In this document: one piece after another, positions 20,237 through 62,403 of the stretch | Layout of the letters: each line of letters opens with the position of its first letter | How positions within the stretch are numbered: position 1 is the stretch's first letter | Source of the DNA: Planctomycetota bacterium | GTDB lineage: Bacteria > Planctomycetota > Phycisphaerae > UBA1845 > UTPLA1 | Direction: 5' to 3' | Assembly: GCA_015654675.1 (NCBI GenBank) | Contig: JAATGM010000020.1 | Coordinates: 62,001-126,000, forward strand | DNA length: 64,000 nt | Translations under genes and position numbers: made by a program | Notes under the pieces: generated by a model | What the model was told of the DNA's origin: nothing | What the model saw: the letters and a program-made list of their open reading frames with translations, nothing else | The model's database searches: none

Positions 20237-23200
20237 TTATGGGCAGTTGGTATCGGGGTCGGTGAGGAGTTTGTTGATAAAGAGGGTGGCGTCGGCGGCG
20301 TTGAGTCTTAGGTCGCTGTTGAGGTCGGCGCAGCCGCAGTCGTTGGTGGCCAGGTTGCCGGACGCTATGCAGGCGATGAAAGGTTGGATGTCGCGGCCGT
20401 CGACGGCGTAATCGAGATCGAGATCGCCCTGGCAGAAGGCATTGCAGGCGCATTCGTCGGGGCGGTTGTCCTGATCGAAGTCGGATAGTAAGCCGTTGGC
20501 GATGTCGCAACTGTCGGGGACCCCGTTGGCGTTGCAATCGGTGGCGGTGCCGGCGGCGAGTTCGCAGGCGTCGAGAATCTGGTTGGCGTTGCAGTCGCCG
20601 ATTGCGGCGGAGTACTGGACTTTGACGGATATATAGGTTGCGCCGCCGCAGGGGTTGTCGACCAGGATGTTTGGCGTCATGTGGATGATGGCGTCGCCGC
20701 CCGGGACGGCGGCGTTCCAGGTTGCGGCCGGGATGGTGAGGATGTCCTGGTTGGGTGCGGGGCAACTGAATCCTGAGAAGGCGAAGGCGTTGCCGAGCGA
20801 GACGTTGTTGACGTCGATGGCGACGAATTCGGAGATCGAGTCGATATCGCCAACGCCGCGGAAGGTGAGGGTGACATCGGACGTGGCCGGTGGTGGGGCG
20901 GTGAGGGTAAAGGACTGCACGGTTGGGGCGAGGAGCGGGCTGAGGTTGGGGGATTGTTGTTCGTAGGTTCCGTTCAACTGGCAGGCGTCGGGGGTGAGGT
21001 TGTGAGCGCAGTCGGGGAGGCAGTTGGCGCCGCAGAGCAGGGGATTGGTCTGGCAGGCGTCGAGAATGCCGTCGTTGTTGCAGTCGTTTGCTGCGAGTTC
21101 GCAGCTATCGGGGATTGAATTGTGATTGCAGTCGACGCAATTCGGGCAGAGGGGCGGGACCTGGCATTCGTCGGGAATGAAGTCGAAATTGCAGTCGCCG
21201 GCGGCGAGTTCGCAGGTGTCGGGAACCAAATTGGCGTTGCAGTCCGCGCAGCTCGGGCAGAGCGGTGGGACCTGGCACTCGTCGGGGTTACCGTCGGTAT
21301 TACAGTCGAGACTTGAGCCCGAAAGGACGTCGCAGAGATCGGGTCGGCCATTGTTGTTGCAGTCGATGTCGCAGGCGTCCGGAATGTGGTTCTGATTGCA
21401 GTCCGCGCATGACGGACAAATTGGGGGAACCTGGCAATTGTCGGGGATGCCATCGTTCTGGCAGTCGGTGCAGGTGGGGCAGAGCGGAGGGACCTGGCAT
21501 TCGTCCGGACTGCCGTCGGCGTTGCAGTCGAGACTGAAGCCGGAACTGATGTCGCAGAGGTCAGGTTGACCGCTGTTGTTACAGTCGATGTCGCATATAT
21601 CCGGGATGTGATTCTGATTGCAATCGGAACAGGCGGGGCAGATCGGCGGAACCTGGCAGATGTCAGGGATGCCATCGTTTTGGCAATCGGCGCACGTGAC
21701 GCAGATGGGTGGAACCTGGCACTCGTCGGGAATTCCGTCCTGGGCGCAGTCGAGACTCGACCCACTCGCGATGTCACAGCTGTCCGGCTGACCGTTGCTG
21801 TTGCAGTCGATTTCACATTCGTCGGGTATCTGGTTGTGATTGCAATCGGGGCAAGTGGGGCAAATGGGCGGGACCTGGCAGAGATCGGGGATTGCGTCGC
21901 CCTGGCAATCGGAACAGGTCGGGCAGTATGGCGGGCGTTGGCATTCGTCGGGCACGCCGTTCGCATCGCAATCGAGACTTGAACCGTCGGCAATATCGAG
22001 TGCATCGTCGGTGCGGTTTTCGTTGCAATCGACGGCGGCAAAAGCGCCGTATTCCCATGTGTCGCCCAAGGGCTCGAACGAAAAATCGAGTCCTCCGAAA
22101 AGGACGACTGTACTACGCGCAGAATCGTAGACTAGCGTGTGCGCTGAGCGAGCGGCGGGGCGATTGAGAGGATTGGACTGCGTCCAAACCGCGCCATTCC
22201 ACACCCAAGTTTCGTTTCCGACGCCGGAACCGAGTCCCCCGAACAGCACCGATTCGGCGCGAGCGGCGTTGAATGCCATCGCGTGTTGAGTCCGCGCCGG
22301 CGGGCTGCCTGGCGGAGTCCGCTGAGCCCAATTCGAACCATTCCATTCCCACGTGTCGCCGAGTGATAAGCCAGAACTGCCGGTTCCACCAAAGAGAACG
22401 GTTACGCCGCGGGTGCTGTCAAATGCCATTGCATGAAAGTAGCGTGCGGGCGGGCTATTTGATGGAGCGCGCTGCAACCAATCGGCGCCGTTCCACTCCC
22501 ACGTATCGCCAAGCGCCGTATTGCCGGCGTTGCCGGAGGCGCCTCCAAAGAGCACGGTCAAGCCACGGACAGAGTCGAATGCCATCGCGTGATCAGAGCG
22601 AGCAGTCGGACTGTGAGTGGGAATGCGCTTGGACCAATTGTTGCCGTTCCATTCCCAAGTATCCCCGATTCGCCCGACCACCGGACTGACACCGCCGAAG
22701 AGAACGCTGACGCCTCTGGCGCTGTCATACGCGAGTATGGGGTCCCAGCGCGGCGGTGGGCTGGTCGGAGGGGTTCGCTGAACCCAGGTTGCGCCGTTCC
22801 ATTCCCACGTATCCGCCAAACCGAGGAAGGAAACGGGCATGCCGCCGAAGAGAACCGATCGATTGCGGCCACTGTCGAAGGCCATACCGTGGCGGGATCG
22901 CGCAACTGGGGTCGATTCCAGTTCTGGATGCAGCCAGTTCGTACCGTTCCATTCCCATGTCTGGCTTCCGACGACCGAGGGCTCACCGCCGCGGAGCACG
23001 ACCACGCCACGCGCGCTATCAAACGCCATTTTGTGGCCTGAGCCGACCGAAACCTGAGTAGCGGGAAAACGCCGAGTCCAATCACTTCCGTTCCATTCCC
23101 AGGTTTGGCCACCTTCGAATAGCAATACAACTCCAGCGGGCTCGAAATATGCCATGTCGCTGCCGAAACCGGGATTTGCTTGCGGGAATCGCTGCGTCCA

Positions 23201-23890
23201 AGTCGTCCCGTTCCATTCCCATGTGTCGGAGAAAAAACCTGTACTGGAAGTTCCGCCGTAGAGTACGGTTACTGCTCGGGCTGCGTCGTACGCCATCGGG
23301 GCATACTGCCGGCCGGGCGGATTGGTCGTGGGGTGGCGCTCCGTCCAGGCGGTTCCATTCCATTCCCATGTGTCCGAGCGAAAACCAACTCCGGCCGCGC
23401 CGCCAAAGAGCACTGCCACTCCGCGGGCGCGATCGAAAGCCATTGAATGTCTGGAGCGAGTTGGGGGCCGCACCGCCGGTGCGCGCTCGGTCCAATTTGT
23501 CCCGTCCCATTCCCACGTGTCATTGCCTCCGCTGCTACCGCCAAACAGGACGCAAACGCCGCGGGCTGAATCGAAGACCATGGCGCTGTCGTAGCGGGCT
23601 GAAGGGCTGTTGGCCGGAAAGCGCTGTCTCCAGAACTTTCCGTTCCACTCCCAAGTATCGCCAAGCGGGCCGCCGTTATACCCTCCGAATACGACGGTTA
23701 CGCCGCGAGTGCCGTCATAGGCCATGGCGTGATTGGCGCGAGGATTCAAGAGGGGAGGCCGCGTCCAGTTTGGTTGTTGTCCGAGTGCTGAGTCGGACAT
23801 GGTCGACATGAGCATCGCTGTTGCGAAGGCCCCATGCAGGCAGGCAGTTGATAGGCGTTTTGATGGCTGGACCTGGTATTGGCGACACAT
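20237..23890 (-). CDS. Large secreted Kelch-type beta-propeller protein with calcium-type repeats and dockerin-like C-terminus
   Basis: A 1217-residue protein. Residues about 10-38 look like a signal sequence (ATAMLMSTMSDSALGQ). Residues about 40-610 carry around twelve Kelch-like units, each with RSRH.MAFDSARGVTVLFGG followed by DTWEWNG. Residues about 612-970 are a Cys-rich array of DCNxNxxPDxC motifs, as in thrombospondin type 3-like calcium repeats, with a 74-residue higher-order period. Residues about 976-1095 form a separate beta domain (QSPNLSP to YISVKV). The end (GDLDLDYAVDGRDI ... LLTDPDTNCP) is a dockerin-like pair of Asp/Asn loops shared with other secreted proteins here. Cysteines imply export. 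A conserved 36-base element lies 107-142 bases upstream. Confidence 0.9.
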   Translation of the reverse strand: MCRQYQVQPSKRLSTACLHGAFATAMLMSTMSDSALGQQPNWTRPPLLNPRANHAMAYDGTRGVTVVFGGYNGGPLGDTWEWNGKFWRQRFPANSPSARYDSAMVFDSARGVCVLFGGSSGGNDTWEWDGTNWTERAPAVRPPTRSRHSMAFDRARGVAVLFGGAAGVGFRSDTWEWNGTAWTERHPTTNPPGRQYAPMAYDAARAVTVLYGGTSSTGFFSDTWEWNGTTWTQRFPQANPGFGSDMAYFEPAGVVLLFEGGQTWEWNGSDWTRRFPATQVSVGSGHKMAFDSARGVVVLRGGEPSVVGSQTWEWNGTNWLHPELESTPVARSRHGMAFDSGRNRSVLFGGMPVSFLGLADTWEWNGATWVQRTPPTSPPPRWDPILAYDSARGVSVLFGGVSPVVGRIGDTWEWNGNNWSKRIPTHSPTARSDHAMAFDSVRGLTVLFGGASGNAGNTALGDTWEWNGADWLQRAPSNSPPARYFHAMAFDSTRGVTVLFGGTGSSGLSLGDTWEWNGSNWAQRTPPGSPPARTQHAMAFNAARAESVLFGGLGSGVGNETWVWNGAVWTQSNPLNRPAARSAHTLVYDSARSTVVLFGGLDFSFEPLGDTWEYGAFAAVDCNENRTDDALDIADGSSLDCDANGVPDECQRPPYCPTCSDCQGDAIPDLCQVPPICPTCPDCNHNQIPDECEIDCNSNGQPDSCDIASGSSLDCAQDGIPDECQVPPICVTCADCQNDGIPDICQVPPICPACSDCNQNHIPDICDIDCNNSGQPDLCDISSGFSLDCNADGSPDECQVPPLCPTCTDCQNDGIPDNCQVPPICPSCADCNQNHIPDACDIDCNNNGRPDLCDVLSGSSLDCNTDGNPDECQVPPLCPSCADCNANLVPDTCELAAGDCNFDFIPDECQVPPLCPNCVDCNHNSIPDSCELAANDCNNDGILDACQTNPLLCGANCLPDCAHNLTPDACQLNGTYEQQSPNLSPLLAPTVQSFTLTAPPPATSDVTLTFRGVGDIDSISEFVAIDVNNVSLGNAFAFSGFSCPAPNQDILTIPAATWNAAVPGGDAIIHMTPNILVDNPCGGATYISVKVQYSAAIGDCNANQILDACELAAGTATDCNANGVPDSCDIANGLLSDFDQDNRPDECACNAFCQGDLDLDYAVDGRDIQPFIACIASGNLATNDCGCADLNSDLRLNAADATLFINKLLTDPDTNCP
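21303..21968 (-). repeat. Three 222-bp tandem coding repeats
   Basis: The codons for SSLDC recur at about 21303, 21525, 21747 and 21969, an exact spacing of 222 bases (74 codons). Each unit encodes two DCQNDGIPD/QVPPICP segments and two DCN loops, one followed by CDIDCNN.G.PDLCD. The fixed spacing shows the calcium-repeat array grew by duplication of a 74-residue block, not of the single motif. Confidence 0.85.
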
Positions 23891-49689: not shown

Positions 49690-50328
49690 ATGTTCGAGCC
49701 GGGTTCCGATGAGGTCGCGGATGGGTGGGTGGCCGGCGCCATCGGCGGGTCTGAGCAGGATCGGGAGCGTCTTGTCTCGATTCTGACGCCGCGGGTGCGC
49801 GCGATGGTGTTGGCGCGACTGGCGCCGGCGCCGTCGCAGTTTCATGTCGTGGACGACCTGGTGCAGCAGTCGTTGGTGGATGTGACGGCGAAGCTGCGCG
49901 AGCTGCGGACGCCGACGTTTGTGGCGCTGCGGTCGTTTGCTTCGGTGATCGTGTCGCGGCGGGTGGCAGACTATCTGCGCGACGCGGCCAAGCCGGAAGG
50001 GATGACGTTGCGGTTGTCGGCGGCGGATTCGTCGATCGTCGAGTGGCTGAGCCGGAGCTTGCCGGCGAGCGGGCGGTCTCCGCGAAGCGCGGCGGCGCGA
50101 GCGGAAGAGGCGGAGCGGATGTTGCTGGAGCTTGGCAAGTTGAAGGAGAGTCAGCGGGAGATTCTGACGCTGGCATTTTTCGACCAGCTTTCGCTGGATG
50201 AGATTTCGCAGCGACTGGAGATGAGCCGGCCGGCGACTTCGATGGCGCTGGTCCGGGCGATCCGCGCACTGCGGGCGCGGGTGGAGGGGTCGATGGGGTC
50301 CTGGAGTCCGCATGCGTACGGAGCTTGA
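49690..50328 (+). CDS. RNA polymerase sigma factor, ECF-like
   Basis: A 212-residue ECF-type sigma factor. Region 2 is visible as FHVVDDLVQQSLVDVTAKL, and region 4 as LSLDEISQRLEMSRPATSMALVRAIRALR, an HTH that contacts the -35 box. Its 3' end overlaps the kinase gene by 17 bases. Such sigma-kinase pairs are common in planctomycetes and probably act together as one signalling module. The GGGG immediately before the ATG is too close for a normal site, so leaderless transcription or a later start is possible. Confidence 0.9.
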   Translation: MFEPGSDEVADGWVAGAIGGSEQDRERLVSILTPRVRAMVLARLAPAPSQFHVVDDLVQQSLVDVTAKLRELRTPTFVALRSFASVIVSRRVADYLRDAAKPEGMTLRLSAADSSIVEWLSRSLPASGRSPRSAAARAEEAERMLLELGKLKESQREILTLAFFDQLSLDEISQRLEMSRPATSMALVRAIRALRARVEGSMGSWSPHAYGA

Positions 50329-53242
50329 CGGCGAGCGCGGTGACGAACTCGCGAACGAGATGGACCGGGCGCTGCGGTCTTTCTGGCGCGGGTCGCATGG
50401 GGAGATCGACCGGCTGGTGGGTGAGCCGGGGTCGTCGGCGCTGATGACGTGTCTGGCGGCGGTGACGGGGGAGAGCGCCGCGATTGTGCCGCATGTGCCG
50501 CGGATCGCGGAATATGAGATTGTGCGCGAGATCGGACGCGGGGGGATGGGCGTGGTGTATGAGGCGCGGCACGCGCGGACGCAGCGGCGAGTGGCGCTGA
50601 AGGTATTGCGCACGATTGACAGCGGCGGGCGGGAGGGGCGGTTATTTGCGCGCGAAGTGGGATCGTTGGCGCGGTTCAAGCATCCGAACATTGCGACACT
50701 GTTTGACGCAGGCGAGACGCCGGACGGGCGGTCGTATTTCGCCATGGAGCTGGTGGAGGGGGTGACGCTGGCGGAGTGGGCCCGGAAACGCGAGGCATTT
50801 GGCGGGACGCGCGAGGGGGCGGATCGGCGGCGGCTGGAGCTGTTTGGGCGGATTTGCGCGGCGGTGAATTATGCGCATCAGCGCGGGGTGATTCACCGGG
50901 ATCTGAAGCCGTCGAACATACTGGTGGATGCGAATGATCAGCCGAAGGTGCTGGACTTCGGGATGGCGCGGCTGCTGGATGCGGATGCTGAACTGGCGAC
51001 GCAGACGATGGAGATGAAGAACATCGTCGGGACGCTGGCGTACATGAGCCCCGAGCAGGCGATGGGTCGGCTGGACGACGTGGACATTCGGACGGATGTG
51101 TATGCGCTGGGCGTGATTCTGTATGAGCTGCTGACGGGGCGGCGGCCTTATGAGGTACGCGACAGTGCGCTGGCGGCGGGATTGGCGGCGATCGCGGAGA
51201 CGCCGCCGCGGCGGCCTTCGGTGGTGAACGCGGCTGCGCGGGGCGATCTTGAGGCGATCGTTCTGAAGGCGCTGGAGAAGTCGCCGGATCGGCGGTACGC
51301 GAGCGCGGCGGAGTTTGGGGAGGACGTGGAACGGTATCTGGGCAGCCGGCCGATTCGGGCGCGGCGGCCGAGCGTGGGGTATTTGCTGGCGAAGCTGGTG
51401 GGGCGGCACAGGCTGACAGCGGCACTGATCGGGGTGCTGGCGATTCTGGCGGCGGGGTCTGGCGTCGTTTTTGTGATGCAGGCGGCGGCGGTGCGGCGGC
51501 AGCGCGATGAGGCGAAGGCACAGACGCGGCGAGCAGAGCGGATCAGCGGGTATTTGACGGGGATGTTCGGGACGCTTGATCCGAAGCGATTGGGGCCGAG
51601 CGTGCCGGTTCGGTCGGTGCTGGATCAGGCGTCGGGGAGTCTGGAGAGCGAGCTGGCGGATGACCGGGCCACGCAGGCGGCGGTGCACGACGTGCTGGGG
51701 CGCGGATATATGGGGTTGGGGGTGTTGAATGAGGCGGAGCGGCATCTCAAGGCGGCGCTGGATTTGAGGCGGGAGGTATTTGGCGAGCGAAGCGGGCCTT
51801 ATGCGACATCGCTGCATCAGCTTGGATTGCTGGCGGTGCGGCAGCAACGGCCGGATGACTGGAAGCGACTTCTGACGGAGGCGTATGAGATCCGGCGCGA
51901 ATTGTTCGGCGATGAGAGTGCGGACGTCGCGGAGAGTCTGGACGCGCTGGGGCGGCGGTTCTCGAGCGGGACGGAGATGGCGGACGCCGAACAGATGCAG
52001 CGCCGGGCCCTGGAGATTCGACGAAAGATCGGCACGGATGAGCTGAGCATCGCACAGTCGCTGAGCGGTCTTGGGGTGCTGCTTGTGGCGGCGGGCCGGT
52101 ACGAGGAGGCGGAGCCGATTCTGGTGGAGGCGTTGGGAATCCAGCGGCGCATGCTGGGGCCGAGTCATTTTGACGTGGCGCGGACGTTGACGGATCTGGG
52201 GGAGATTTACTTCTATTGGGGACAGTACGACAAGGCGGAGGAGTGCCATCGCGAGCAGGTGCGGATACTGCGAAAATTATTTCCGCAGGGACAGGTGGAT
52301 CTTGCATTTGCGTTGTCTGACCTGGGCGGGATTCTGGGATTGAAAGGAGAATATCGTGAGGCGGAGCAGTTGATGCGGGAGGGGATCGAGATGGAGGGAC
52401 GATGCGGAGACGAGCCGCATCCGGCCCTGTGCACGAATAACTACGCCAAGTTTTTGCGTTCGCAGGGACGGTACGCGGAGGCGGAGCCGCTGGCGCGGTC
52501 GGTGTATGACTGGTGGCACGGCAACGCACTCGAGGCGCATCGCGCGAAGAGCTATGCGTGCCAGCATCTGGGGTTGATATTGCTGGATCGTGGGGAAGTG
52601 GATGAAGCGGATCGGTTGTTTCGGGCGGCGGAGGAGAACTGGCGGGCGCTGTTTGGGGAGACGCATCCGCGGCTGGCCGTGGCGTTGATCGGAGAGGGCC
52701 GCGTGGCAGAGCTGCGCGGACAAACGGCCGAGGCGGTGCGGTTTTTTGGTGCGGCGGTAGAGATTCGGCGCAAGCGGATCGGTGACGATCATCCGGAGAC
52801 GGCGGAGGCGCGGATCGAATTGGCGCGGGCGATGGCGGCCGCGGGGCAGCGAGTTCAGGCGGCTGCGACGGCACGTGCGGCGTTGGCGCTGCTGCGATCG
52901 CGGATGGGGGAGAAGAGTGCGGATGTTTCGTGGGGGATGTATGAGCTGGCGGGGATGGTTGAGGCGGCGGAGGCGGAGCAGTTGCTGCGCGGGTCGATTG
53001 CGATTGAGCGCGGGCTGGATCGGGAGCGGCATCCGCAGTTGGGATTGTCGCTGAGCCGGCTGGGGGAGGTGCTGGCGGCGCGTGGGGAGCTGGCCGACGC
53101 ATGTAGTGCGGTGGCCGAGGCGGTTGAGATCCTGAAGTCGAGGTTGAGCGCGAGCGACACACGGCTCATGAAGGCCGAGAAGGCGTTGTATTACTGCTCG
53201 TCGAAATCGCAGCCGCAGTCGTACATCAGGAGCATACGCTAG
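50312..53242 (+). CDS. Membrane Ser/Thr protein kinase with TPR repeats
   Basis: A 976-residue protein. The PknB-type kinase domain (about residues 66-340) has the Gly loop IGRGGMGVVYEA, ATP-anchoring Lys97 (RVALKVLR), catalytic Asp197 in HRDLKPSNIL and DFG at 215-217. A membrane helix follows around 366-390 (LTAALIGVLAILAAGSGVVF). The C-terminal part has some ten to twelve TPR helices ending near residue 960 (for example AADERYLKAAL-type, LGEIYFYWGQYDKAEECHRE). The N-terminal 60 residues are an acidic leader. The domain order suggests kinase inside and TPR sensor outside, or the reverse for TPR scaffolds. It is coupled to the sigma factor gene and probably regulates it. Confidence 0.92.
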   Translation: MRTELDGERGDELANEMDRALRSFWRGSHGEIDRLVGEPGSSALMTCLAAVTGESAAIVPHVPRIAEYEIVREIGRGGMGVVYEARHARTQRRVALKVLRTIDSGGREGRLFAREVGSLARFKHPNIATLFDAGETPDGRSYFAMELVEGVTLAEWARKREAFGGTREGADRRRLELFGRICAAVNYAHQRGVIHRDLKPSNILVDANDQPKVLDFGMARLLDADAELATQTMEMKNIVGTLAYMSPEQAMGRLDDVDIRTDVYALGVILYELLTGRRPYEVRDSALAAGLAAIAETPPRRPSVVNAAARGDLEAIVLKALEKSPDRRYASAAEFGEDVERYLGSRPIRARRPSVGYLLAKLVGRHRLTAALIGVLAILAAGSGVVFVMQAAAVRRQRDEAKAQTRRAERISGYLTGMFGTLDPKRLGPSVPVRSVLDQASGSLESELADDRATQAAVHDVLGRGYMGLGVLNEAERHLKAALDLRREVFGERSGPYATSLHQLGLLAVRQQRPDDWKRLLTEAYEIRRELFGDESADVAESLDALGRRFSSGTEMADAEQMQRRALEIRRKIGTDELSIAQSLSGLGVLLVAAGRYEEAEPILVEALGIQRRMLGPSHFDVARTLTDLGEIYFYWGQYDKAEECHREQVRILRKLFPQGQVDLAFALSDLGGILGLKGEYREAEQLMREGIEMEGRCGDEPHPALCTNNYAKFLRSQGRYAEAEPLARSVYDWWHGNALEAHRAKSYACQHLGLILLDRGEVDEADRLFRAAEENWRALFGETHPRLAVALIGEGRVAELRGQTAEAVRFFGAAVEIRRKRIGDDHPETAEARIELARAMAAAGQRVQAAATARAALALLRSRMGEKSADVSWGMYELAGMVEAAEAEQLLRGSIAIERGLDRERHPQLGLSLSRLGEVLAARGELADACSAVAEAVEILKSRLSASDTRLMKAEKALYYCSSKSQPQSYIRSIR

Positions 53243-53273
53243 GCACCCGCGAACGGCGGGCGAGGTCGGAGCG

Positions 53274-54014
53274 ATGCAGGGCGGGAAGATGGCGATGGAA
53301 TTTTCGAGTACAGCAAGCGGAAAATTGTGGCTGTCCCGCGTATTCGTTCGCCGGCATGGCGCAGGAGATTATTTACGCCTCAAGGCGTGTCTCATTCTGA
53401 ACGCCAGTTTTGCATTGGCATTGGGTTTCGAAGAGTTCGGGTGCTCCGCAAATACTTCCATTTGCTCAATCAATGGTGATGGATCGGTGACCCTCACAGA
53501 CAAACGATCGTTTAGGATGGCGGGGATTCGTATGAAACCGGACTCGGAAATCGGAGAAGGCCCTGCGCTCGCACTCGCACTTAAAATTGTCGAGTCAGTG
53601 TCCCGGGACGTACGGATCGTGGTGGACAAGGCATCTGGCGAGGCCACGATCTATTATGAGCAACCAATTTTCTATGAGAAGTACAATCCGATCTGGATCA
53701 TCATGCCGCCGAGCCGCACAAGCATGGTGAACGAACTGCTCATCTACATCGGAATGGCCGAACTCGACGGATCGATCGATGGCGTTTCTCATTCTGAGAA
53801 CGAGGCATTGAGGCGGGCGCAGGCAAAATACCGGCAGTATGAGAGCGGGTGTGTTCCACCGATGAAGCTGTCGTATCTGGCGGCTAAACCGGAACTCCTC
53901 TATTGGCCGACGAAGGGTTTCCTACCTAATCTGGCGCCGAAGGATTATGAAAGGTGTTCAATTCAGCGGAATGGTCGGATGAGTGAGGCGGGCGCGAAGG
54001 GCGCGGACGAGTGA
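53274..54014 (+). CDS. Possible SNase-fold secreted protein
   Basis: A 246-residue protein, AT-richer than its neighbours. Residues about 37-57 are hydrophobic (LKACLILNASFALALGF) and end in a Cys, so a signal or lipoprotein leader is possible, though with a long N-terminal extension. The stretch INGDGSVTLTDKRSFRMAGI fits a staphylococcal nuclease opening (DGDT-L-DG--VRL-GI), and VNELLIYIGMAELDG with EALRRAQAKYRQ resembles its C-terminal helices. The usual catalytic Arg and Asp/Glu positions are not clearly present. It follows the kinase gene by 31 bases. Function unproven; may be inactive. Confidence 0.6.
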   Translation: MQGGKMAMEFSSTASGKLWLSRVFVRRHGAGDYLRLKACLILNASFALALGFEEFGCSANTSICSINGDGSVTLTDKRSFRMAGIRMKPDSEIGEGPALALALKIVESVSRDVRIVVDKASGEATIYYEQPIFYEKYNPIWIIMPPSRTSMVNELLIYIGMAELDGSIDGVSHSENEALRRAQAKYRQYESGCVPPMKLSYLAAKPELLYWPTKGFLPNLAPKDYERCSIQRNGRMSEAGAKGADE

Positions 54015-54099
54015 GCGACTGTTGGCGGCGCGCGGGGTGGGAGCGGTGTGACGCGGAGCGGTAGCGATCCGGATCGGGCGATTTGCGGTGCGGAGAATC

Positions 54100-54567
54100 G
54101 TGTCATCGAATCTTCGAGTGCGAGGTCGGCGAGTCGCGACGAGATGGCTCACAGTCTGCCTTGGTCTGGCATTGGGTGCGAGCGGCCTCTGGTGATATGT
54201 TGGGAAACTCCGGAATGCATGTCGCACATACGCAGAAATTGGCGTATGCGTCTACCGTGATGGGATTCCGGGAAGATTTGCATGTGAGGTGCTCGACACG
54301 TCGGGGCAGCCACTATCGGGAGTGCTGGTCCGAGTGTGAAGCAATTCTGGTTGGACGGCCAGCGACGAGCGTACTGACGAGCATGGTAAGGTGCAGATTC
54401 CAAGTCATGAGGATGATGTGAACGGCGTCGCCGTGAATGATACTGAAATAGCTTTCAATTCAGCCACACCTTGGTTTCCGCCGCTACGCGCGTCCAGTGG
54501 CCTGCGCTTGGTCTTCGTGGTTCCACGTAGTTTCGGGCACGCTTCGACCGAGGCGCTTCCCAATTGA
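54100..54567 (+). pseudogene. Secreted carboxypeptidase-regulatory-like protein with two in-frame TGA codons
   Basis: One reading frame encodes a membrane/signal helix (WLTVCLGLALGASGLW), then TGA at 54193-54195, then a continuation (YVGKLRNACRT, then CEVLDTSGQPLSGVLVRV), TGA at 54337-54339, and a further segment (DERTDEHGKVQIPSHEDD) to a TGA at 54565-54567. The VLDTSGQPLSGVLVRV pattern and TDEHGKVQIP fit the carboxypeptidase regulatory-like or Ig-like fold. No frameshift is needed. The simplest reading is a decayed gene with two nonsense mutations; recoding cannot be excluded from sequence alone. Confidence 0.6.
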
Positions 54568-54612
54568 CTATGGAGGCGATCGTTTCCAGATTCTCTACCC
54601 AGCCTCACTCAC

Positions 54613-54732
54613 GGTCGATGCAGCTGGCGGCGCATTGCGGCGGTTGGGTGTCAGGCGACGGGAGGAGCCGCATTCCGGGTCGACGAAAGAGTCCTGTCAC
54701 CGTACGGGCCTCCGCGGAAGAGCATGCTGCGG
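54613..54732 (-). pseudogene. Decayed copy of the TolB-like gene tail
   Basis: About 120 bases align well with the 3' end of the TolB-like gene at 55870-55994: shared blocks include GTGTCAGGCG, GGAGCCGC.TTCC, GTCGACGA and TGCGGGCCTCCG. The translated remnant FRGGPYGDRT matches YLGGPHGDMG of the intact gene. Shifts and missing bases break the frame. The insertion overlaps the end of the membrane gene at 54697-55179, whose last codons derive from it. Confidence 0.65.
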
Positions 54733-55179
54733 AAATCGGTGCCTGTCCCGGGTATCGCGATACCAGAGGAAGGCGGTGGTGGCCGCCAACGCGATGAAGG
54801 GAAGCCAGAGCGGGACCCGGAGCACGAAGCATCCGCGGGCTTTGAATGGTGTGGGGCAGATATTCTGATACGGTGAGTAAACTCCTTGATCGTGTTCAAG
54901 GATGCAATCGGCCACGGAAAGCCCGCGTGGTGGTGAGATGCCACCGAGGATGCGTTGCAATCTAGCTACATCGGCCTGGGACCAGACGCTTCTGGATATT
55001 GTCACGGCTTGATGAGCGACGCCAATTTCCCATTTCGGCCCGGGGGCGAGTCCATTCGATGCATATCGAATGCCGACGAAGAAGTTTGCTTGCCATGCGA
55101 TAGCAAACGCGCCGGTGGCGGCGAGCATGGTCCATTTCGCGACGGTAAGGCGTTGGCGCGGGGTGCTCATGGCAAGCAA
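54697..55179 (-). CDS. Two-helix membrane protein with altered C-terminus
   Basis: A 160-residue protein with helices at about residues 16-38 (WTMLAATGAFAIAWQANFFV) and 121-139 (LWLPFIALAATTAFLWYRD). The layout of TM, extracytoplasmic loop and final TM with WYRD matches small planctomycete membrane proteins that normally continue into a Cys-x-x-Cys zinc ribbon. Here, after WYRDTRDRH, the last codons come from the TolB-tail remnant and the ribbon is missing. Function unknown. It may be a truncated but expressed gene. Confidence 0.6.
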   Translation of the reverse strand: MLAMSTPRQRLTVAKWTMLAATGAFAIAWQANFFVGIRYASNGLAPGPKWEIGVAHQAVTISRSVWSQADVARLQRILGGISPPRGLSVADCILEHDQGVYSPYQNICPTPFKARGCFVLRVPLWLPFIALAATTAFLWYRDTRDRHRFPQHALPRRPVR

Positions 55180-55196
55180 ACATCGTTTGACGACTC

Positions 55197-55232
55197 TGGC
55201 GGCAGGCGGCGGACGGAGCCGCTTTCCAGGTC
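55197..55232 (-). pseudogene. Short remnant of the TolB-like gene tail
   Basis: A 36-base stretch that closely matches part of the TolB-like gene tail at 55907-55941 (about 28 of the 30 central bases; CAGGCGGCGGA and GGAGCCGCTTTCCA). Its translation on the minus strand contains DLESGSVRRLPPES, next to DLESGSFRRLTPQS in the intact gene. Upstream similarity fades. Second remnant of this family. Confidence 0.6.
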
Positions 55233-55302
55233 CCGCGTATTGCGTGTCCCTCTTTGTCCGCGGACTTGTGCCGATCGGACTAGATCTTGAGAAGCTTTCG
55301 CG

Positions 55303-55812
55303 TCAGTCAAATCGCATTACCAAATTAGTTATCAGAAGTAATACAAGCAGCAGCAAGGCACCGACTAAAGTGGCCCCGATGCATAGTGCGACGCCGTCAT
55401 CCGAAACTCGTTCGCGCACAAGCACTCCGCGTAGGTGTAGTATATGCACCCCGGTGGCGATCGCGTATGCAGAGACTGGGACTATCTGGCAACATGTGAG
55501 ATACCAAATATCATTCCCATTTGTATAAATATACTGACTTCCGGGTGAGGCGACCGCGGTCATCCAAAAAATACGGGAGGCGCATGATAGTACTACGCCC
55601 GATACCAGGATCACACATGCGATCATGATATGGCGTTTCAGCAAGCGGACAGCGAACTCGCGCCGACTGGCAGAGTCGTGGCGAGCAATCAGCTCGCTTC
55701 GATCGAACGTATTTCCACACTCTGGGCATTTCGATCCCACCAATCCGCGAAGATTGTAGTCACAATGCCAGCAGCGAAGATCGCGATGAATCATCTCAGA
55801 GGTCATCGGCAT
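55303..55812 (-). CDS. Zinc-ribbon membrane protein
   Basis: A 169-residue protein. The N-terminal zinc ribbon is CWHCDYNLRGLVGSKCPECG, a motif common in planctomycete small membrane proteins. Three or four hydrophobic helices follow, near 65-85 (HIMIACVILVSGVVLSCASR), 105-125 and 140-165 (ALCIGATLVGALLLLVLLLI). The C-terminal end is membrane. The coding DNA is distinctly AT-richer than the window average. Function unknown. Confidence 0.72.
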   Translation of the reverse strand: MPMTSEMIHRDLRCWHCDYNLRGLVGSKCPECGNTFDRSELIARHDSASRREFAVRLLKRHIMIACVILVSGVVLSCASRIFWMTAVASPGSQYIYTNGNDIWYLTCCQIVPVSAYAIATGVHILHLRGVLVRERVSDDGVALCIGATLVGALLLLVLLLITNLVMRFD

Positions 55813-55861
55813 CCATTTCCAATCCTACGTGCCCGGCGGAAAGCCATCGGGGAGTTGCGCC

Positions 55862-57142
55862 TTATTTAGAGTCGACGCCGCCGGCAGCGCATTTCGGCGA
55901 TTGGGGTGTCAGGCGGCGGAAGGAGCCGCTTTCCAAGTCGACGAGATAGAGTCCCATGTCGCCGTGCGGGCCTCCGAGGTAGAGCAAGCTGCGTCCGTCG
56001 GGAGAAAATTGCATTGCGGTCATCCCGCCGTGCTTGGGGTATTCGCGGATCGAGCGCGATTGAATGTCCGAAATGCAGAGTCCGTTTTGCGTTCGTCGCT
56101 GACCATTGATTTCAGAAGTGTACTTTTTTTGGTATGCGAGCTTGTCGCCGATGGGCGAAAAGCACATGTCGGAGCCATAGGACACCTGTTCATTATCCAA
56201 GAGGCGGCGCCGGTTGCTGCCGTTGAAATCCATCAGATAGACTTCGCTTTGCCCACCAAGCGAACCCAACGCAATTGTACTTCCATCGTCATTGATTCGA
56301 ACGAGAAGACCCCCTCCGAGGTCGTTGACGATTGCTGTCGTGAGATCGACGCTGAATGCCCGGCTCCGGCTGTAAGCAACTTGACCGAAGACGAGCCGAT
56401 TTCCATCTCTGCTCGCGTGAAAATATCCACTTCCAATTGAGCAAATCTGCCTGGGATCACTCGAATCGAGATTGGTCAACCACAGTCCTTTTTCACCTGA
56501 CCAGATCAGTTGCCTTCCGTTCGGGTGAAAACGCGGCGAACCGATGATCCCGGGCGGCCTGGCTATTTGGCGGACGACGTTTCCTTGCAGGTCGACTACC
56601 ACAAATTGATAACCGTAACGATATCCGGTTAGCCAATGGGTTTCGCCGGCTGTCATTCCGGCCAGAAGCGATTTGCTGTCGGGCGACCAGCAGCCGCGGG
56701 TTTCATAACCGGGTAGCACATGGTCTCCCTGATTGCGGATCAGGCAATGCTGGTTTGTACCGTCGGCGTTCATGAGCCAGATGTCCTGGTCGCGTTCGCC
56801 GTTTGCCGCAGGAGCGCGCCTTGAGCAAAAGGCGATTTTTGAGCCGTCTGGCGAGAATGTTCCATTGCAGTCTACCAGTTTGTAATATCCGCCACATGCC
56901 AGGTGCGACGACACAGCAATGACGACGAGCAGCGTGCGCAGCACCTGAGCTGAGCCGATTCGAGCCGTTTGACGCGATGTGGGAGGATCGAGGGAAACGT
57001 CAGGCGAAATTGGGAGACGGCGAAGCGTGTAGTGGCGCTCTAATGTGGGGCGAATGATTTGAGATGATCGGTCGTTCATCATCGGGATTGTGATGCCTTT
57101 CGTTTGCAGCGAGAGGATTGGCTCATGCGAAACGCCGGTCAT
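55862..57142 (-). CDS. TolB-like/PD40 beta-propeller lipoprotein
   Basis: A secreted protein of about 426 residues. A lipoprotein-like leader (TLLVVIAVSSHLACGG) lies unusually far in, at about residue 70, so the true start may be later (a GTG at 56944 is possible). The rest has PD40/WD40-type blades: CNGTFSPDGSKIAFCSRRA, ETRGCWSPDSKSLLAG, SPRFHPNGRQLIWSG, DMCFSPIGDKLAYQKKYTS and AMQFSPDGRSLLYLGGP. It may bind proteins or glycans outside the inner membrane. Decayed copies of its tail lie at 54613-54732 and 55197-55232. It starts two bases after the next gene's stop and may be coupled. Confidence 0.8.
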   Translation of the reverse strand: MTGVSHEPILSLQTKGITIPMMNDRSSQIIRPTLERHYTLRRLPISPDVSLDPPTSRQTARIGSAQVLRTLLVVIAVSSHLACGGYYKLVDCNGTFSPDGSKIAFCSRRAPAANGERDQDIWLMNADGTNQHCLIRNQGDHVLPGYETRGCWSPDSKSLLAGMTAGETHWLTGYRYGYQFVVVDLQGNVVRQIARPPGIIGSPRFHPNGRQLIWSGEKGLWLTNLDSSDPRQICSIGSGYFHASRDGNRLVFGQVAYSRSRAFSVDLTTAIVNDLGGGLLVRINDDGSTIALGSLGGQSEVYLMDFNGSNRRRLLDNEQVSYGSDMCFSPIGDKLAYQKKYTSEINGQRRTQNGLCISDIQSRSIREYPKHGGMTAMQFSPDGRSLLYLGGPHGDMGLYLVDLESGSFRRLTPQSPKCAAGGVDSK

Positions 57143-57147
57143 CAATG

Positions 57148-57858
57148 CTAGGGATCCGTTAGCCTTGCGTTTGTGACGACGCCGTCGGGATCTACATCAA
57201 ACATGACGCACATGCCGGAGCTTGGGCCGACGGGCAATTTGGGGTGGCCGAGGTCGTACTGCAGGTTGTGAAAGACGGTTCGCGGGCTTCCGAACATGGC
57301 CACAATGCGATCTCTCGATTGGCCGTGAAGTGTCTTCCGAGATTGGGCAGTATCGAGCATTGAGAGTCGATCGCAGATCGACGCGGTCTTCCAGGCGACT
57401 TCGTCGAATGGCTTGAAGTCGAGGATACAATCTGCGGGACGCCCCGATATATGAATTCCGTTGACAGACCAGTCCGAGTTAAATGCAAAGCTTGCCTCCG
57501 CCCCGTCGCCCAACGAGTACCCGAGAGTGCGAGACTCATATGAGGGCGGGCCGAGCCTTGCGCGGACTTCAGTGGCGGCCAGCCCGACGATGTGTCCGTC
57601 GCGAAGGAGATTTCTTACCATCGTCCGTCGGGTATCAGGATTCCCGACTCGCCAAGCGGATGCGTCGAAGGATCTTTCGGACGCGAAGGCCGTTCGGCGA
57701 TTGAGATAGCGAGCCCCCGCGCGCATACCGACTGCCAGCAGCGCGATAACACCCGCGATGGCGATCAGTCGCGCAGCGGTATGGCCGGACCGGTATGGGC
57801 CCACTATGAGCGCTTTTGATGATTGATAAACGATCGCGACGAGTTGTCTATTGACCAT
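57148..57858 (-). CDS. Membrane-anchored protein with two BamE/SmpA-like modules (tentative)
   Basis: A 236-residue protein from ATG 57858 (site GGATGG eight bases upstream). A single N-terminal membrane helix (AARLIAIAGVIALLAVGMRA) anchors a soluble part with two similar small modules: IVGLAATEVRARLGPPSYES and DRIVAMFGSPRTVFHNLQYD, each followed by a strand ending in NG or V. This VxxLGxP pattern is that of BamE/SmpA-like domains, but this is a weak assignment. The gene is co-oriented with the TolB-like gene two bases ahead. Function unknown. Confidence 0.65.
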   Translation of the reverse strand: MVNRQLVAIVYQSSKALIVGPYRSGHTAARLIAIAGVIALLAVGMRAGARYLNRRTAFASERSFDASAWRVGNPDTRRTMVRNLLRDGHIVGLAATEVRARLGPPSYESRTLGYSLGDGAEASFAFNSDWSVNGIHISGRPADCILDFKPFDEVAWKTASICDRLSMLDTAQSRKTLHGQSRDRIVAMFGSPRTVFHNLQYDLGHPKLPVGPSSGMCVMFDVDPDGVVTNARLTDP

Positions 57859-58106
57859 GCTGCGTGCCATCCTATGAACGCGCGGTGACGATGACTCTCG
57901 TTCGCAATTCCGCCGGGCCGAATCGCGCGCTGCGGTCATAGTCGTGGAAATCGTCGTCGCGCAACGAGAAAAATCCATCCAATCTGAAAGCTGGCTGGTC
58001 GAGTCGCCACTGATGCTAAGTCGTTTGAATCTGACCGGTTAGGCGTTTGGGCAAAAGAGAACATGACGGCTGCCTGCCGGGCGCGGATGGCCATTTCGCG
58101 CGGGAA

Positions 58107-59189
58107 TTAGGAGAGAGACTCGATGAACGCGCGGGCCTGGGATTCTCCGTCGGTTATGAGGCGATTGATCAGTTCGGGCTGGCGGGAAAGTTTGGAGACG
58201 TAGTCGAGGGAGTCCATCAGTTCTTCGGACATGCGGATGATGCGCACCTTGACGGGTTCGCGGCGGGTGATGCCGAATCGGTTAAGGACCTCGTCGGAAA
58301 GGGCGTTCTCGCTGAGTAGAAAATTGATGAACTCGAGCAATTCGAGACTGTGGTGGAACGAGACGTTGCCGACCATCTGGTTGCGGCGGTCGGCGATCTC
58401 AGCTGGGCGGGTTGGGACTGATTTACAGGTGGTGGAGTTGATCTGGATGATCCAGATTTCGTCGGGAATATGGTCGTCGCCGACGTAGCGCGGGCGGAAG
58501 AGCTCCTGAATCGGCGGGTTGTCGGAGAAGAGGCCGTCCCAGTAGTAGTGGTCTCCGATGCGGACGGCGGGGAAGAGCATGGGGACGGCGGCGGAGGCGA
58601 GGATGGCCTCGACGCAGACTTCATTCTTGTGCGAGTAGAACTTCTTCAGCTCGCCGGTGAGGACATCGGCGGCGCCGACGATGAGGATCGGGCTTTCGGG
58701 GCGGGTGAGCTTTGAGAAATCGGCGAAGTTGATGTGCTTTTCGAGCATGGCCTTGAGGTCGGTGAAGAGATTTCGCGGGAGGAACATGTTCAGCAGGGCG
58801 AAGCCCATCTGCATGGGGAGGTCGCTGGGGCTCAACTCGAACTGCGGGAACCAGCCCTTCTGGACCATGCGGAGGTACTCGGCGCCGCATCGGTCGAGCA
58901 TGAGTTCTTCAGGGTGCTGGGCGGTGAGCTCGCGCCAGAAATCGACGAGGCGATCCTGGATGGGTGTCTTGTCGCCGTGGGCGGCTTTGACGAGGCCGTA
59001 CCAGGCGAGGGTGGCGCAGACCGCGCCGCCCGACGTGCCGCTGAGGGTTGTGATCTGGTGCGAGACGTGCACCCGGTTTTCGAACAGTGTTTTGAGGACG
59101 CCGGCAGTAAAGGCGGTCTGGCTTCCGCCGCCCTGACATGCAATGGCGATTTTCTTGCGGGTCATAGGTTTACTTTCAACGTCGGGCAT
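58107..59189 (-). CDS. Patatin-like phospholipase
   Basis: A 360-residue protein of the patatin-like lipase family. The oxyanion loop is GGGSQTAFTAGVL, the nucleophile Ser lies in GTSGGAV (about residue 49), and the catalytic Asp in WDGLFSDNPP. The C-terminal region is helical. Such enzymes cleave acyl chains from phospholipids or esters. Either of two ATG codons (59189 or 59165) may be the start; neither has a clear site. It has no signal peptide and is probably cytosolic or peripheral. Confidence 0.87.
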   Translation of the reverse strand: MPDVESKPMTRKKIAIACQGGGSQTAFTAGVLKTLFENRVHVSHQITTLSGTSGGAVCATLAWYGLVKAAHGDKTPIQDRLVDFWRELTAQHPEELMLDRCGAEYLRMVQKGWFPQFELSPSDLPMQMGFALLNMFLPRNLFTDLKAMLEKHINFADFSKLTRPESPILIVGAADVLTGELKKFYSHKNEVCVEAILASAAVPMLFPAVRIGDHYYWDGLFSDNPPIQELFRPRYVGDDHIPDEIWIIQINSTTCKSVPTRPAEIADRRNQMVGNVSFHHSLELLEFINFLLSENALSDEVLNRFGITRREPVKVRIIRMSEELMDSLDYVSKLSRQPELINRLITDGESQARAFIESLS

Positions 59190-59385: not shown

Positions 59386-62300
59386 CTAAGGGCATTGCAG
59401 AGTCGGATTGGTCAGCAGCTCAGTTACGAAGGCCTGGACGTCGGCGTTGTTGAGGCGGTTGTCGTTGTTCATGTCGGCGCAGCCGCAGTCGTTGATCGAG
59501 AGGTTGTGGCCGGCGATGCAATTCATGAAGGGGGTGATGTCGCGGCCGTCGATCATGGCGTCGAGGTCGAGGTCGCCGTGGCAGAAGGCGCCGCAGCCGC
59601 ACTGGTCGGCGCGGCCGTCGTGGTCGAGGTCCGTGAGGAGGTTGTCCTGAATGTCGCAACTGTCGGGACGGCCATTGGCGTTGCAGTCGTCGACGGTGCC
59701 GGACGCCAGCTCGCAGGCGTCGAGGATGCCGTTGGTGTTGCAGTCGCCTTCGGTGGTGGCGTAATCGACCTTAACGGATATGTAGGACGCGCCGGAGCAG
59801 AGGCCGTCTACCAGGGCGTTGGGCTGCATGGTGATGAGGGCATTGCCGCCGGCGACCGCGGCGTTCCATGTGGCGGCTGCGCAAGTGAGCGTGGTGGTGT
59901 TGGCGAGCGGGCAGGTGAATCCCGAGGTGGTGAAGACATTTCCGAGTCCGATGCCGTTGACGGAGATATTCACGAATTCCGATGCGGAGTCGATGTCGGC
60001 GACGGCCTTGAAGGTGAGGGTGACGTCGCCGGCGGCGGCGACCGGGGGTGAAGTTAGAAGGTAGGTCTGTGGATTGGGCTGCACAAATGGGGAGAGATTG
60101 GGCGACTGGCGGCTGAAGGAGCCGACGAGCTGGCACGAGTCAGGGACGAGATTGTGGTCGCAGTCGGCGAGGCATGATCCGCCGCAGAGGGACGGGTTGG
60201 TCTGGCAGGCGTCGGGGATTCCGTCCTGATTGCAGTCCGGGACTGTGCCGAGGTTGACGTCGCAGCTGTCGGGGACGTTGTTGTGATTGCAGTCTGCGCA
60301 GGTTGGACAGAGCGGCGGGAGCTGGCACTCGTCGGGGATGGAGTCGGCCTGACAGTCGGGGCTGAAGTGGCTGAGGATGTCGCAGGCATCGGGGATGTTG
60401 TTGCTGTTGCAATCGGGGCAGGTGGGGCAGAGGGGCGGCAGTTCACATTCGTCGGGGATGTTGTTGGCCTGGCAATCGAGACTGGTATGGGCGGTGATGT
60501 CGCAGGCGTCGGGAATGTTGTTGTGGTTACAGTCCTTGCAGGTGGGGCAGAGCGGGGGAATCTGGCATTCGTCGGGGACGCCGTCCTGCTGACAATCGGG
60601 GCTGGTGTGGGCCGCGACGTCGCATGCGTCGGGGATGGCGTTGGCGTTGCAGTCGATCTCGCAGGAATCAGGAATGTGGTTGGCGTCGCAATCGAGGCAG
60701 TTGGGGCAAATGGGCGGGACCTGGCAAATGTCCGGGATCATGTCGTGATTGCAGTCGGCGCAGGTGGGGCAGATCGGTGGAACATCGCATTCGTCGGGGA
60801 TGGCGTTGGCGTTGCAGTCGGGGCTGGTGGCGTTGGCGATGTCGGTCGCGTCGGGGATGCCGTTGTTGTTGCAATCGGTGATGGCGCTGAAGGTGACGGG
60901 GTCGGAGGGGATGCCATTGGCGACGACGTAGAGCGAGTAGGTGCCGCCCTGGAGACTTTGTGGCACGCGGAATTCGGTGGTGACGATCGCGGCGCCGGTC
61001 ATGACGCTGGTGCGGCTCCAGCTAAAGGTGCGCGCGTAGTAGACGTTTGTTCCGCTGGTTAGTCGGACGAGCGGGTAGTTGCTATCCATCTGCAAATCGT
61101 CGCCGTAGCCGGCGCCTTCGGAGATGCCGTTGAGGCCGGTGCCGGTGAGGTGGTATGAGCCGTCGAGGTTGGAGGTGATGGTGTTGATGACGGGCTTTCC
61201 GGCCGTGAGCGGCGCGCCGGTTGGCGTGTAGACATAGAGTTGGCTGCCGAAGTGAGAGTACAGCACGCCGCCGTCGGGGAGGACGAGCATGGCGGCTTCG
61301 AACGAGGAGATGTTGTCGGTGGGGCCGGTTGGGCCGTTGACGGCGGTGAATGCGTTGGCGACGTAGTCGTATTCGTAGAAGCTGGTGGGCGAGGGAAAGT
61401 GATTGCCGCTGGTCGGGATGGCGCTGACGGCGCAGAGAATGTTGCCATTGACCATCATGGCGGCGGGGGCGTCGGGCGTTCCGTGGCTGCCGGGGATGTC
61501 GGGGCCGGCGATCCAGGTGCCGGGGCTGGTTGTTCCGGTCGGGGTATAGATGGCGGTGTGTCCGGTGGAGCCGAGGAAGAAGGCCTTGCCGTTGGGGAGG
61601 AGGAAAGCGGCGCCCAGTTCGAAACCGAAGGGATCGTAGAGGGAGACTGGGACAATTCCGTCGTTGATCCAGGTGTTGGTGGCTGGGATGTAGCGCTCGG
61701 AATTGGTGCCAAAGGGATCGATGGTGAGGATGCTGTCGTCCGGGAGTTTGACCCAGCTGGCTTCGTCCTGATAGGAGCCGCGGAAGAGTCTCGGGCCGTT
61801 GGTCCAGGTGTTGGTGTTGGGGTTGTAGAGGACGGTTCCGCCGGAGGTTCGTGGGGCGACCGGGCTAATGAGGACGCTTCCGTTGGCGGTGATTTTGGCC
61901 ATTGAGTCGAGGAAGGCCTGGGCGCCGCCGGTGACCGGCGAGGTTGCGGCCGGGTTGAGCACGGTCGTGGGGATGGGGTTGGCGGTCCAGATGTTTGTGA
62001 GCGGGTCATAGATTTCGGATTTAGAGGCACCGGTTCCGTATTCGCCGCCGGCGACGAAGAGGCGGCCGTCCTGAAGGAGGGCGGAGGAGTAGTAGAGGCG
62101 GCTATCGATCATCGAGCCGAGGACGGACCAGGTGCCGTTGATAAAGCTGCCGTGGATGTCGGGGGTGAGTCGGAACCAGCCGCGGCCGATGGTGGAGCCG
62201 TCGTTCTGAGCGGCGGCGATGGTGCCGTCGGAGAGCTGGATCATGAGATTGACACCGCCGGGGGCGGAGCGGACGAGGGGCGTCCAGGTGCCGGCCATCG

Positions 62301-62403
62301 CGCGGGGCGAAATGCCTGCGACCAGAAGGGCCAGCAGGCCGAGTTGGCGCATGGCGAACAGTCGGAACGCGGGGGAGGACAAATTGAGAGCGCGATCAAT
62401 CAT
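59386..62403 (-). CDS. Secreted Kelch/galactose-oxidase-like protein with calcium-type repeats and dockerin-like end
   Basis: A 1005-residue protein. A signal peptide (LGLLALLVAGISPRAMA) precedes a beta-propeller of about 400 residues with Kelch blades such as SSALLQDGRLFVAGGEYG and GAAFLLPNGKAFFLGSTGH; it resembles galactose oxidase-like repeats, but the copper ligands were not identified. Residues about 505-770 are DCNxNxIPDxC calcium-type repeats. A beta domain (QSPNLSP to YISVKV) and a dockerin-like tail (GDLDLDAMIDGRDI ... LLTNPTLQCP) follow, both shared with the protein at 20237-23890. The ATG follows AGGAAAAA. Extracellular. Confidence 0.88.
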   Translation of the reverse strand: MIDRALNLSSPAFRLFAMRQLGLLALLVAGISPRAMAGTWTPLVRSAPGGVNLMIQLSDGTIAAAQNDGSTIGRGWFRLTPDIHGSFINGTWSVLGSMIDSRLYYSSALLQDGRLFVAGGEYGTGASKSEIYDPLTNIWTANPIPTTVLNPAATSPVTGGAQAFLDSMAKITANGSVLISPVAPRTSGGTVLYNPNTNTWTNGPRLFRGSYQDEASWVKLPDDSILTIDPFGTNSERYIPATNTWINDGIVPVSLYDPFGFELGAAFLLPNGKAFFLGSTGHTAIYTPTGTTSPGTWIAGPDIPGSHGTPDAPAAMMVNGNILCAVSAIPTSGNHFPSPTSFYEYDYVANAFTAVNGPTGPTDNISSFEAAMLVLPDGGVLYSHFGSQLYVYTPTGAPLTAGKPVINTITSNLDGSYHLTGTGLNGISEGAGYGDDLQMDSNYPLVRLTSGTNVYYARTFSWSRTSVMTGAAIVTTEFRVPQSLQGGTYSLYVVANGIPSDPVTFSAITDCNNNGIPDATDIANATSPDCNANAIPDECDVPPICPTCADCNHDMIPDICQVPPICPNCLDCDANHIPDSCEIDCNANAIPDACDVAAHTSPDCQQDGVPDECQIPPLCPTCKDCNHNNIPDACDITAHTSLDCQANNIPDECELPPLCPTCPDCNSNNIPDACDILSHFSPDCQADSIPDECQLPPLCPTCADCNHNNVPDSCDVNLGTVPDCNQDGIPDACQTNPSLCGGSCLADCDHNLVPDSCQLVGSFSRQSPNLSPFVQPNPQTYLLTSPPVAAAGDVTLTFKAVADIDSASEFVNISVNGIGLGNVFTTSGFTCPLANTTTLTCAAATWNAAVAGGNALITMQPNALVDGLCSGASYISVKVDYATTEGDCNTNGILDACELASGTVDDCNANGRPDSCDIQDNLLTDLDHDGRADQCGCGAFCHGDLDLDAMIDGRDITPFMNCIAGHNLSINDCGCADMNNDNRLNNADVQAFVTELLTNPTLQCP

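Follow-up and report, generated by a model that had tools for sequence, protein, structure and literature searches.

Two remnants of one beta-propeller gene end among small genes of a Planctomycetota bacterium

How does the end of a single gene come to lie, in pieces, between and behind its neighbours? The question is raised by a 64,000-nucleotide stretch of the Planctomycetota contig JAATGM010000020.1 (the window, that is, the whole stretch of DNA that was analysed), in which an earlier note had likened two short stretches to the 3′ terminus of a gene at 55862-57142 and had proposed repeated tandem duplication and loss, or recombination using this sequence as a breakpoint. In minus-strand order, the locus consists of the propeller gene, ORF A (55812-55303), copy 3, ORF B (55170-54697) and copy 1, and its features are as follows.

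55862 to 57145, minus strand: intact PD40 beta-propeller (TolB-like) gene, an ORF of 427 amino acids with PF07676, donor of the tail
55871 to 55993, minus strand: tail segment of the propeller gene matched by the remnants in the alignment
55303 to 55812, minus strand: ORF A, small protein with a CxxCxYxLxG...CPECG ribbon at its N terminus; separates the intact gene from copy 3
55203 to 55232, minus strand: copy 3, short remnant, 28/30 identical to 55910-55939
54697 to 55170, minus strand: ORF B, small membrane-protein gene with its ATG at 55170, family resemblance until 54748
54614 to 54731, minus strand: copy 1, long remnant, 102/118 ungapped columns identical, with four gaps totalling 5 nt

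The product of the propeller gene resembles the PD40/WD40-like beta-propellers, a group that includes TolB of the Tol-Pal system, and at 61.2 bits it is above the PF07676 (PD40) cut-off of 20.9. In contrast, it reaches 83.2 bits against an equivalog cut-off of 343.15 for TIGR02800, so that TolB proper is rejected, the label 'TolB-like' given to it before is correct, and membership in a Tol-Pal system is conjecture only. The gene is rare: in a class-level sample (397 genomes drawn from the larger class, with the best 4 candidates per genome scored), one of the 396 genomes besides its own has a relative at E 1e-15, and in the order relatives at E 1e-7 were found in 8 of 113 others. The best relative, in genome G104, shows 34% identity across residues 84-416. 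It finishes with a strand of a like type (GLYLLTVEGNQWRRLSPD...), which argues that the tail is an original part of the gene. In a comparison of nine window proteins, minus the rows for a kinase and a dockerin-rich protein, ORF A, ORF B, the patatin gene of the right flank and the ORFs at 57148-57978, 53274-54014 and 49690-50328 found no match on the 13.9-kb contig of G104. When genome contigs were scanned with the product of the propeller gene, the one locus obtained was archaeal and distant, with 23% identity.

Copy 1 matches 55871-55993 with 82% identity across 123 columns (E 9e-27), in the orientation of the propeller gene, which copy 3 shares; the low similarity on proper alignment that would have spoken against a common origin was thus not encountered. 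The matched stretch corresponds to 41 codons of the gene and stops two codons short of its stop codon, and nhmmer extends copy 1 to 54604-54738. Its alignment score is 134, while the highest among 2000 Markov sequences is 34. The matched block ends inside the coding sequence, and the flanks of copy 1 and of the gene differ. The gaps, of 1, 1, 1 and 2 nt, break the frame of the gene, and the 16 mismatches in 118 ungapped columns are spread 9/4/3 over codon positions 1/2/3 of that frame, a distribution which, with few counts, is not significant (p 0.14) and in which an excess at third positions is absent. Because of the four gaps and this absence, copy 1, at a divergence from the gene of K2P 0.15, looks like a non-coding remnant in which the reading frame of the gene shows no trace of selection. 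In the first alignment block (55876-55902 vs 54619-54645), 5 of the 6 mismatches are at codon position 1 of the gene, and these are wobble positions of an in-register plus-strand frame (VDAAGSAFRRLG / VDAAGGALRRLG), in numbers too small to be interpreted.

Copy 3 is shorter, and its match to the gene has an E value of 3.9e-6 and a score of 50, compared with 35 for the highest of 500 random 2.8-kb sequences; chance as the source of the copies is therefore rejected, the score of copy 3 being reached by 0/500 random sequences and that of copy 1 by 0/2000 Markov sequences. It translates as DLESGSVRRL, in frame with DLESGSFRRL of the gene, and its frame extends to a TGA at 55167-55169, which overlaps the start codon of ORF B (ATG at 55170). 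Across 107 kb from 34 loci that carry PD40 genes and overlap in part, ungapped matches reach at most 21/30 for the 30-mer of copy 3 and 19/30 for that of the gene, so that a shared PD40 protein motif is rejected as the sole cause of copy 3. Genome-wide, a degenerate pattern built from copy 3 and the gene finds those two sites only at up to 3 mismatches, and the assembly (4.93 Mb) contains the long tail twice, as copy 1 itself and in the propeller gene; a dispersed (REP-like) repeat, which would be present in many copies genome-wide, is rejected as well. A repeat search of the window recovered the same three-member family (copy 1, copy 3 and the gene tail). Of three marks of a pseudogene fragment, DNA homology to an intact parent is found in both pieces, a broken frame with no coding constraint is found in copy 1 but not in copy 3, whose 30 bp stay in frame, and recognisable further parts of the gene or its flanks are found with neither, tblastn and nhmmer having recovered tail segments alone. 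Both E values bear out the earlier view of them as remnants of the same gene end. The 'increasing decay' ascribed to them was not borne out: over the shared 30 bases the shorter copy 3, if anything, agrees with the gene at more positions (28/30) than copy 1 does (25/30), and with a Fisher p of 0.42 a graded series of ages finds no support.

The zinc ribbon type of ORF A has 27 further matches in the same genome. The family of ORF B follows the pattern PLWLP...LWYRDRR and then a CPECG ribbon, and the C-terminal CxxCxY...CPECG zinc ribbon is absent from ORF B. Its relatives lie in ribbon-bearing ORFs in 8/8 tblastn matches in the loci L045, L046 and L047, a count obtained by pairing matches by coordinates with a list of ribbon-bearing ORFs only; in a search of the assembly, 4/4 matches other than ORF B itself are also inside such ORFs, and so is the relative in L081. 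The family likeness of ORF B stops at 54748 and the homology of copy 1 starts at 54731, leaving 16 bases between, and the final 16 codons of ORF B enter copy 1 in another frame. As judged from the sequence, the start of the propeller tail thus marks the place where ORF B lacks its ribbon. One weak tblastn alignment (54687-54809, 36.6%, E 0.003) crosses from copy 1 into ORF B, and we read it as a chance extension. The genome has another A-B pair, at 6037-6867 and 6854-7444 of L045, whose two genes abut and are not separated by a tail copy. For annotation this means that 54614-54731 would be entered as a propeller-gene fragment, and ORF B as a gene cut short next to it.

Small membrane-protein genes whose products end in a CPECG ribbon stand in tandem arrays at 3.6-9.9 kb of L046 (the same genome, C45:42000-56000) and at 3.1-6.9 kb of L047. 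ORF B matches members of these arrays as far as the LWYRD motif, and the CPECG ribbon is common to ORF A and the array members; ORF B differs from them in having no ribbon, and the arrays differ from the present locus in having neither propeller gene nor tails. Within L046, the pairs 7463-7700/9203-9440 and 4414-4656/8343-8585 share 238-243 bp at 93-95%, and the shared sequence spans the ribbon and about 130 bp past the ORF. L046 and L047 have 806 bp in common at 88%. In an order-level relative, four ribbon-bearing small genes stand in a row at 0.4-3.0 kb of L085 (G024:C432), which shows that arrays of such genes are not limited to this genome.

The remnants themselves appear to belong to this lineage. 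When 54600-55000 was compared with 114 genomes of the order, 4 were matched, namely the genome itself and three others, and the three non-self matches fall in the coding part of ORF B (query positions 156-216, 156-200 and 288-317) and outside copy 1, which is absent from the best 6 candidates per genome in the remaining 113 genomes. With the longer query 54000-57200 against 61 genomes (best 4 candidates per genome scored), the matches are the genome itself and two short stretches, one to the ribbon of ORF A and one to the propeller gene. A layout conserved across relatives, which would have pointed away from local debris, was not found in the 61- and 113-genome searches or on the G104 contig.

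Considering these results, we slightly favour, at somewhat better than even chances, an origin of copy 1 and copy 3 from the end of the PD40 gene by local duplication followed by deletion and decay. A segment containing the end of the propeller gene would have been copied nearby, without inversion, into a neighbourhood of ORF A/ORF B-type small genes. Deletions that began inside the upstream small gene or behind it and reached into the next copy would then have spared only the 3′ end of that copy. At ORF B, the zinc ribbon and the main part of the propeller copy downstream might have gone in a single deletion, which would have produced the junction at 54731-54748 and would account for both truncations. 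The local duplication is supported by the fact that the copies are within ~1.4 kb of the gene, share its orientation and have no other long counterpart; supporting context is also found in the local repeats of gene 3′ ends, which are common in the small-gene arrays of this genome, in the abutting A-B pair of L045 and in the likely broken plus-strand gene beside copy 1. We infer that the duplicates were once longer than their present remains and that the junctions were made by deletion. However, no part of the ~1.28-kb propeller gene except the tails was recognised in 53.0-55.86 kb by tblastn and nhmmer (the third nhmmer match is the query overlapping itself). Furthermore, in a post hoc simulation of random survival, the probability that both pieces fall in the last 123 nt is 0.0011, an objection which is weakened, not removed, by the fact that downstream-running deletions favour 3′ ends. 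Of the repeated tandem duplication and loss proposed earlier, the local duplication is supported, and the duplication of the whole gene is plausible with only tails recognised. Bacterial pseudogene remnants can arise by tandem duplication and deletion, and here too the copies are partial, frame-broken, near an intact parent, in the same orientation and lineage-specific; the difference is that the 3′ end alone is left twice, together with a junction to a truncated neighbour.

The same facts can be accommodated, with clearly lower probability, by a templated duplication of the tail only during repair or replication, in which pieces of the gene end were copied into nearby breaks and an extra whole gene never existed. 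One piece would then have gone in behind ORF A and the other where ORF B ends. That the tail is the sole propeller sequence recognised by tblastn and nhmmer, that both pieces derive from the last 123 nt of the gene, and that the matched blocks finish within the coding sequence between unlike flanks is what such copying would leave; on the other side, it requires two separate events of a like kind with the same donor end, and the TGA of copy 3 overlapping the ATG of ORF B resembles the end of a former operon gene more than a random insert. We consider it improbable that copy 3 matches by chance or is the true end of another PD40 gene, since lost, with copy 1 as the sole remnant: the length of copy 3 is just 30 bp and DLESG-RRL is usual for a PD40 strand of this family, but the DNA identity of 28/30, which the 34 PD40 loci do not approach (21/30 at best), and the score that none of the 500 random sequences reached argue otherwise. 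Least probable of all is a functional repeat kept at gene boundaries, such as an RNA element, a recombination site or a regulatory signal. The order tail, ORF A, tail, ORF B, tail would fit it, whereas Rfam gives no match at gathering score in 53240-58110, the folding z-scores (0.97, -0.11 and 0.52) are no better than those of shuffles, a short predicted hairpin of the gene and copy 3 is lost in copy 1, and the long tail has no further copies in the assembly; given the Rfam and folding results, an RNA element in particular is unlikely.

A bolder reading, for which we see little probability, is that gene 3′ ends are recurrent junctions in this lineage, with tails punctuating gene boundaries, as in the series tail, ORF A, tail, ORF B, tail of this locus, and C-terminal domains being swapped, where deletions or unequal exchange would repeatedly link the end of a small gene with the tail of its neighbour. 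It is kept alive by the shared ends of the L046 small genes, and if tail sharing were general in the small-gene arrays of this group, it would offer a view of bacterial C-terminal domain swapping. For the recombination breakpoint suggested earlier, one fact speaks in favour, namely the start of copy 1 at 16 bases from the end of the ORF B family match. Returning to local duplication and deletion, the event is most simply read as one of an ordinary kind that left debris, and the best reading of the remnants is that they are dead leftovers, for which no function is proposed.

The region is AT-richer, as had been noted before, with a GC content of 0.52-0.61 at 53.25-58.25 kb vs 0.61-0.68 in the left-flank windows starting at 50.0-52.75 kb, and the copy-bearing stretch looks like a lineage-specific, eroding interval. 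Adjoining copy 1, a plus-strand reading frame at 54196-54564 has an in-frame TGA at 54337 and a weak Pfam resemblance, under the cut-off, to Big_1 (Ig-like) and CarboxypepD_reg, and it is probably a broken gene. A kinase gene at 50312-53242 lies to the left of the interval. On the right flank, the patatin-like phospholipase gene at 58107-59189 (PF01734, 79.3 bits) has no match in 16 other genomes of the family. Further local direct repeats are present in the window at 2425-3473, 20549-23667 and 59654-60878, the last of which sits within a 1005-aa ORF (59386-62403) with DCN-type repeats.
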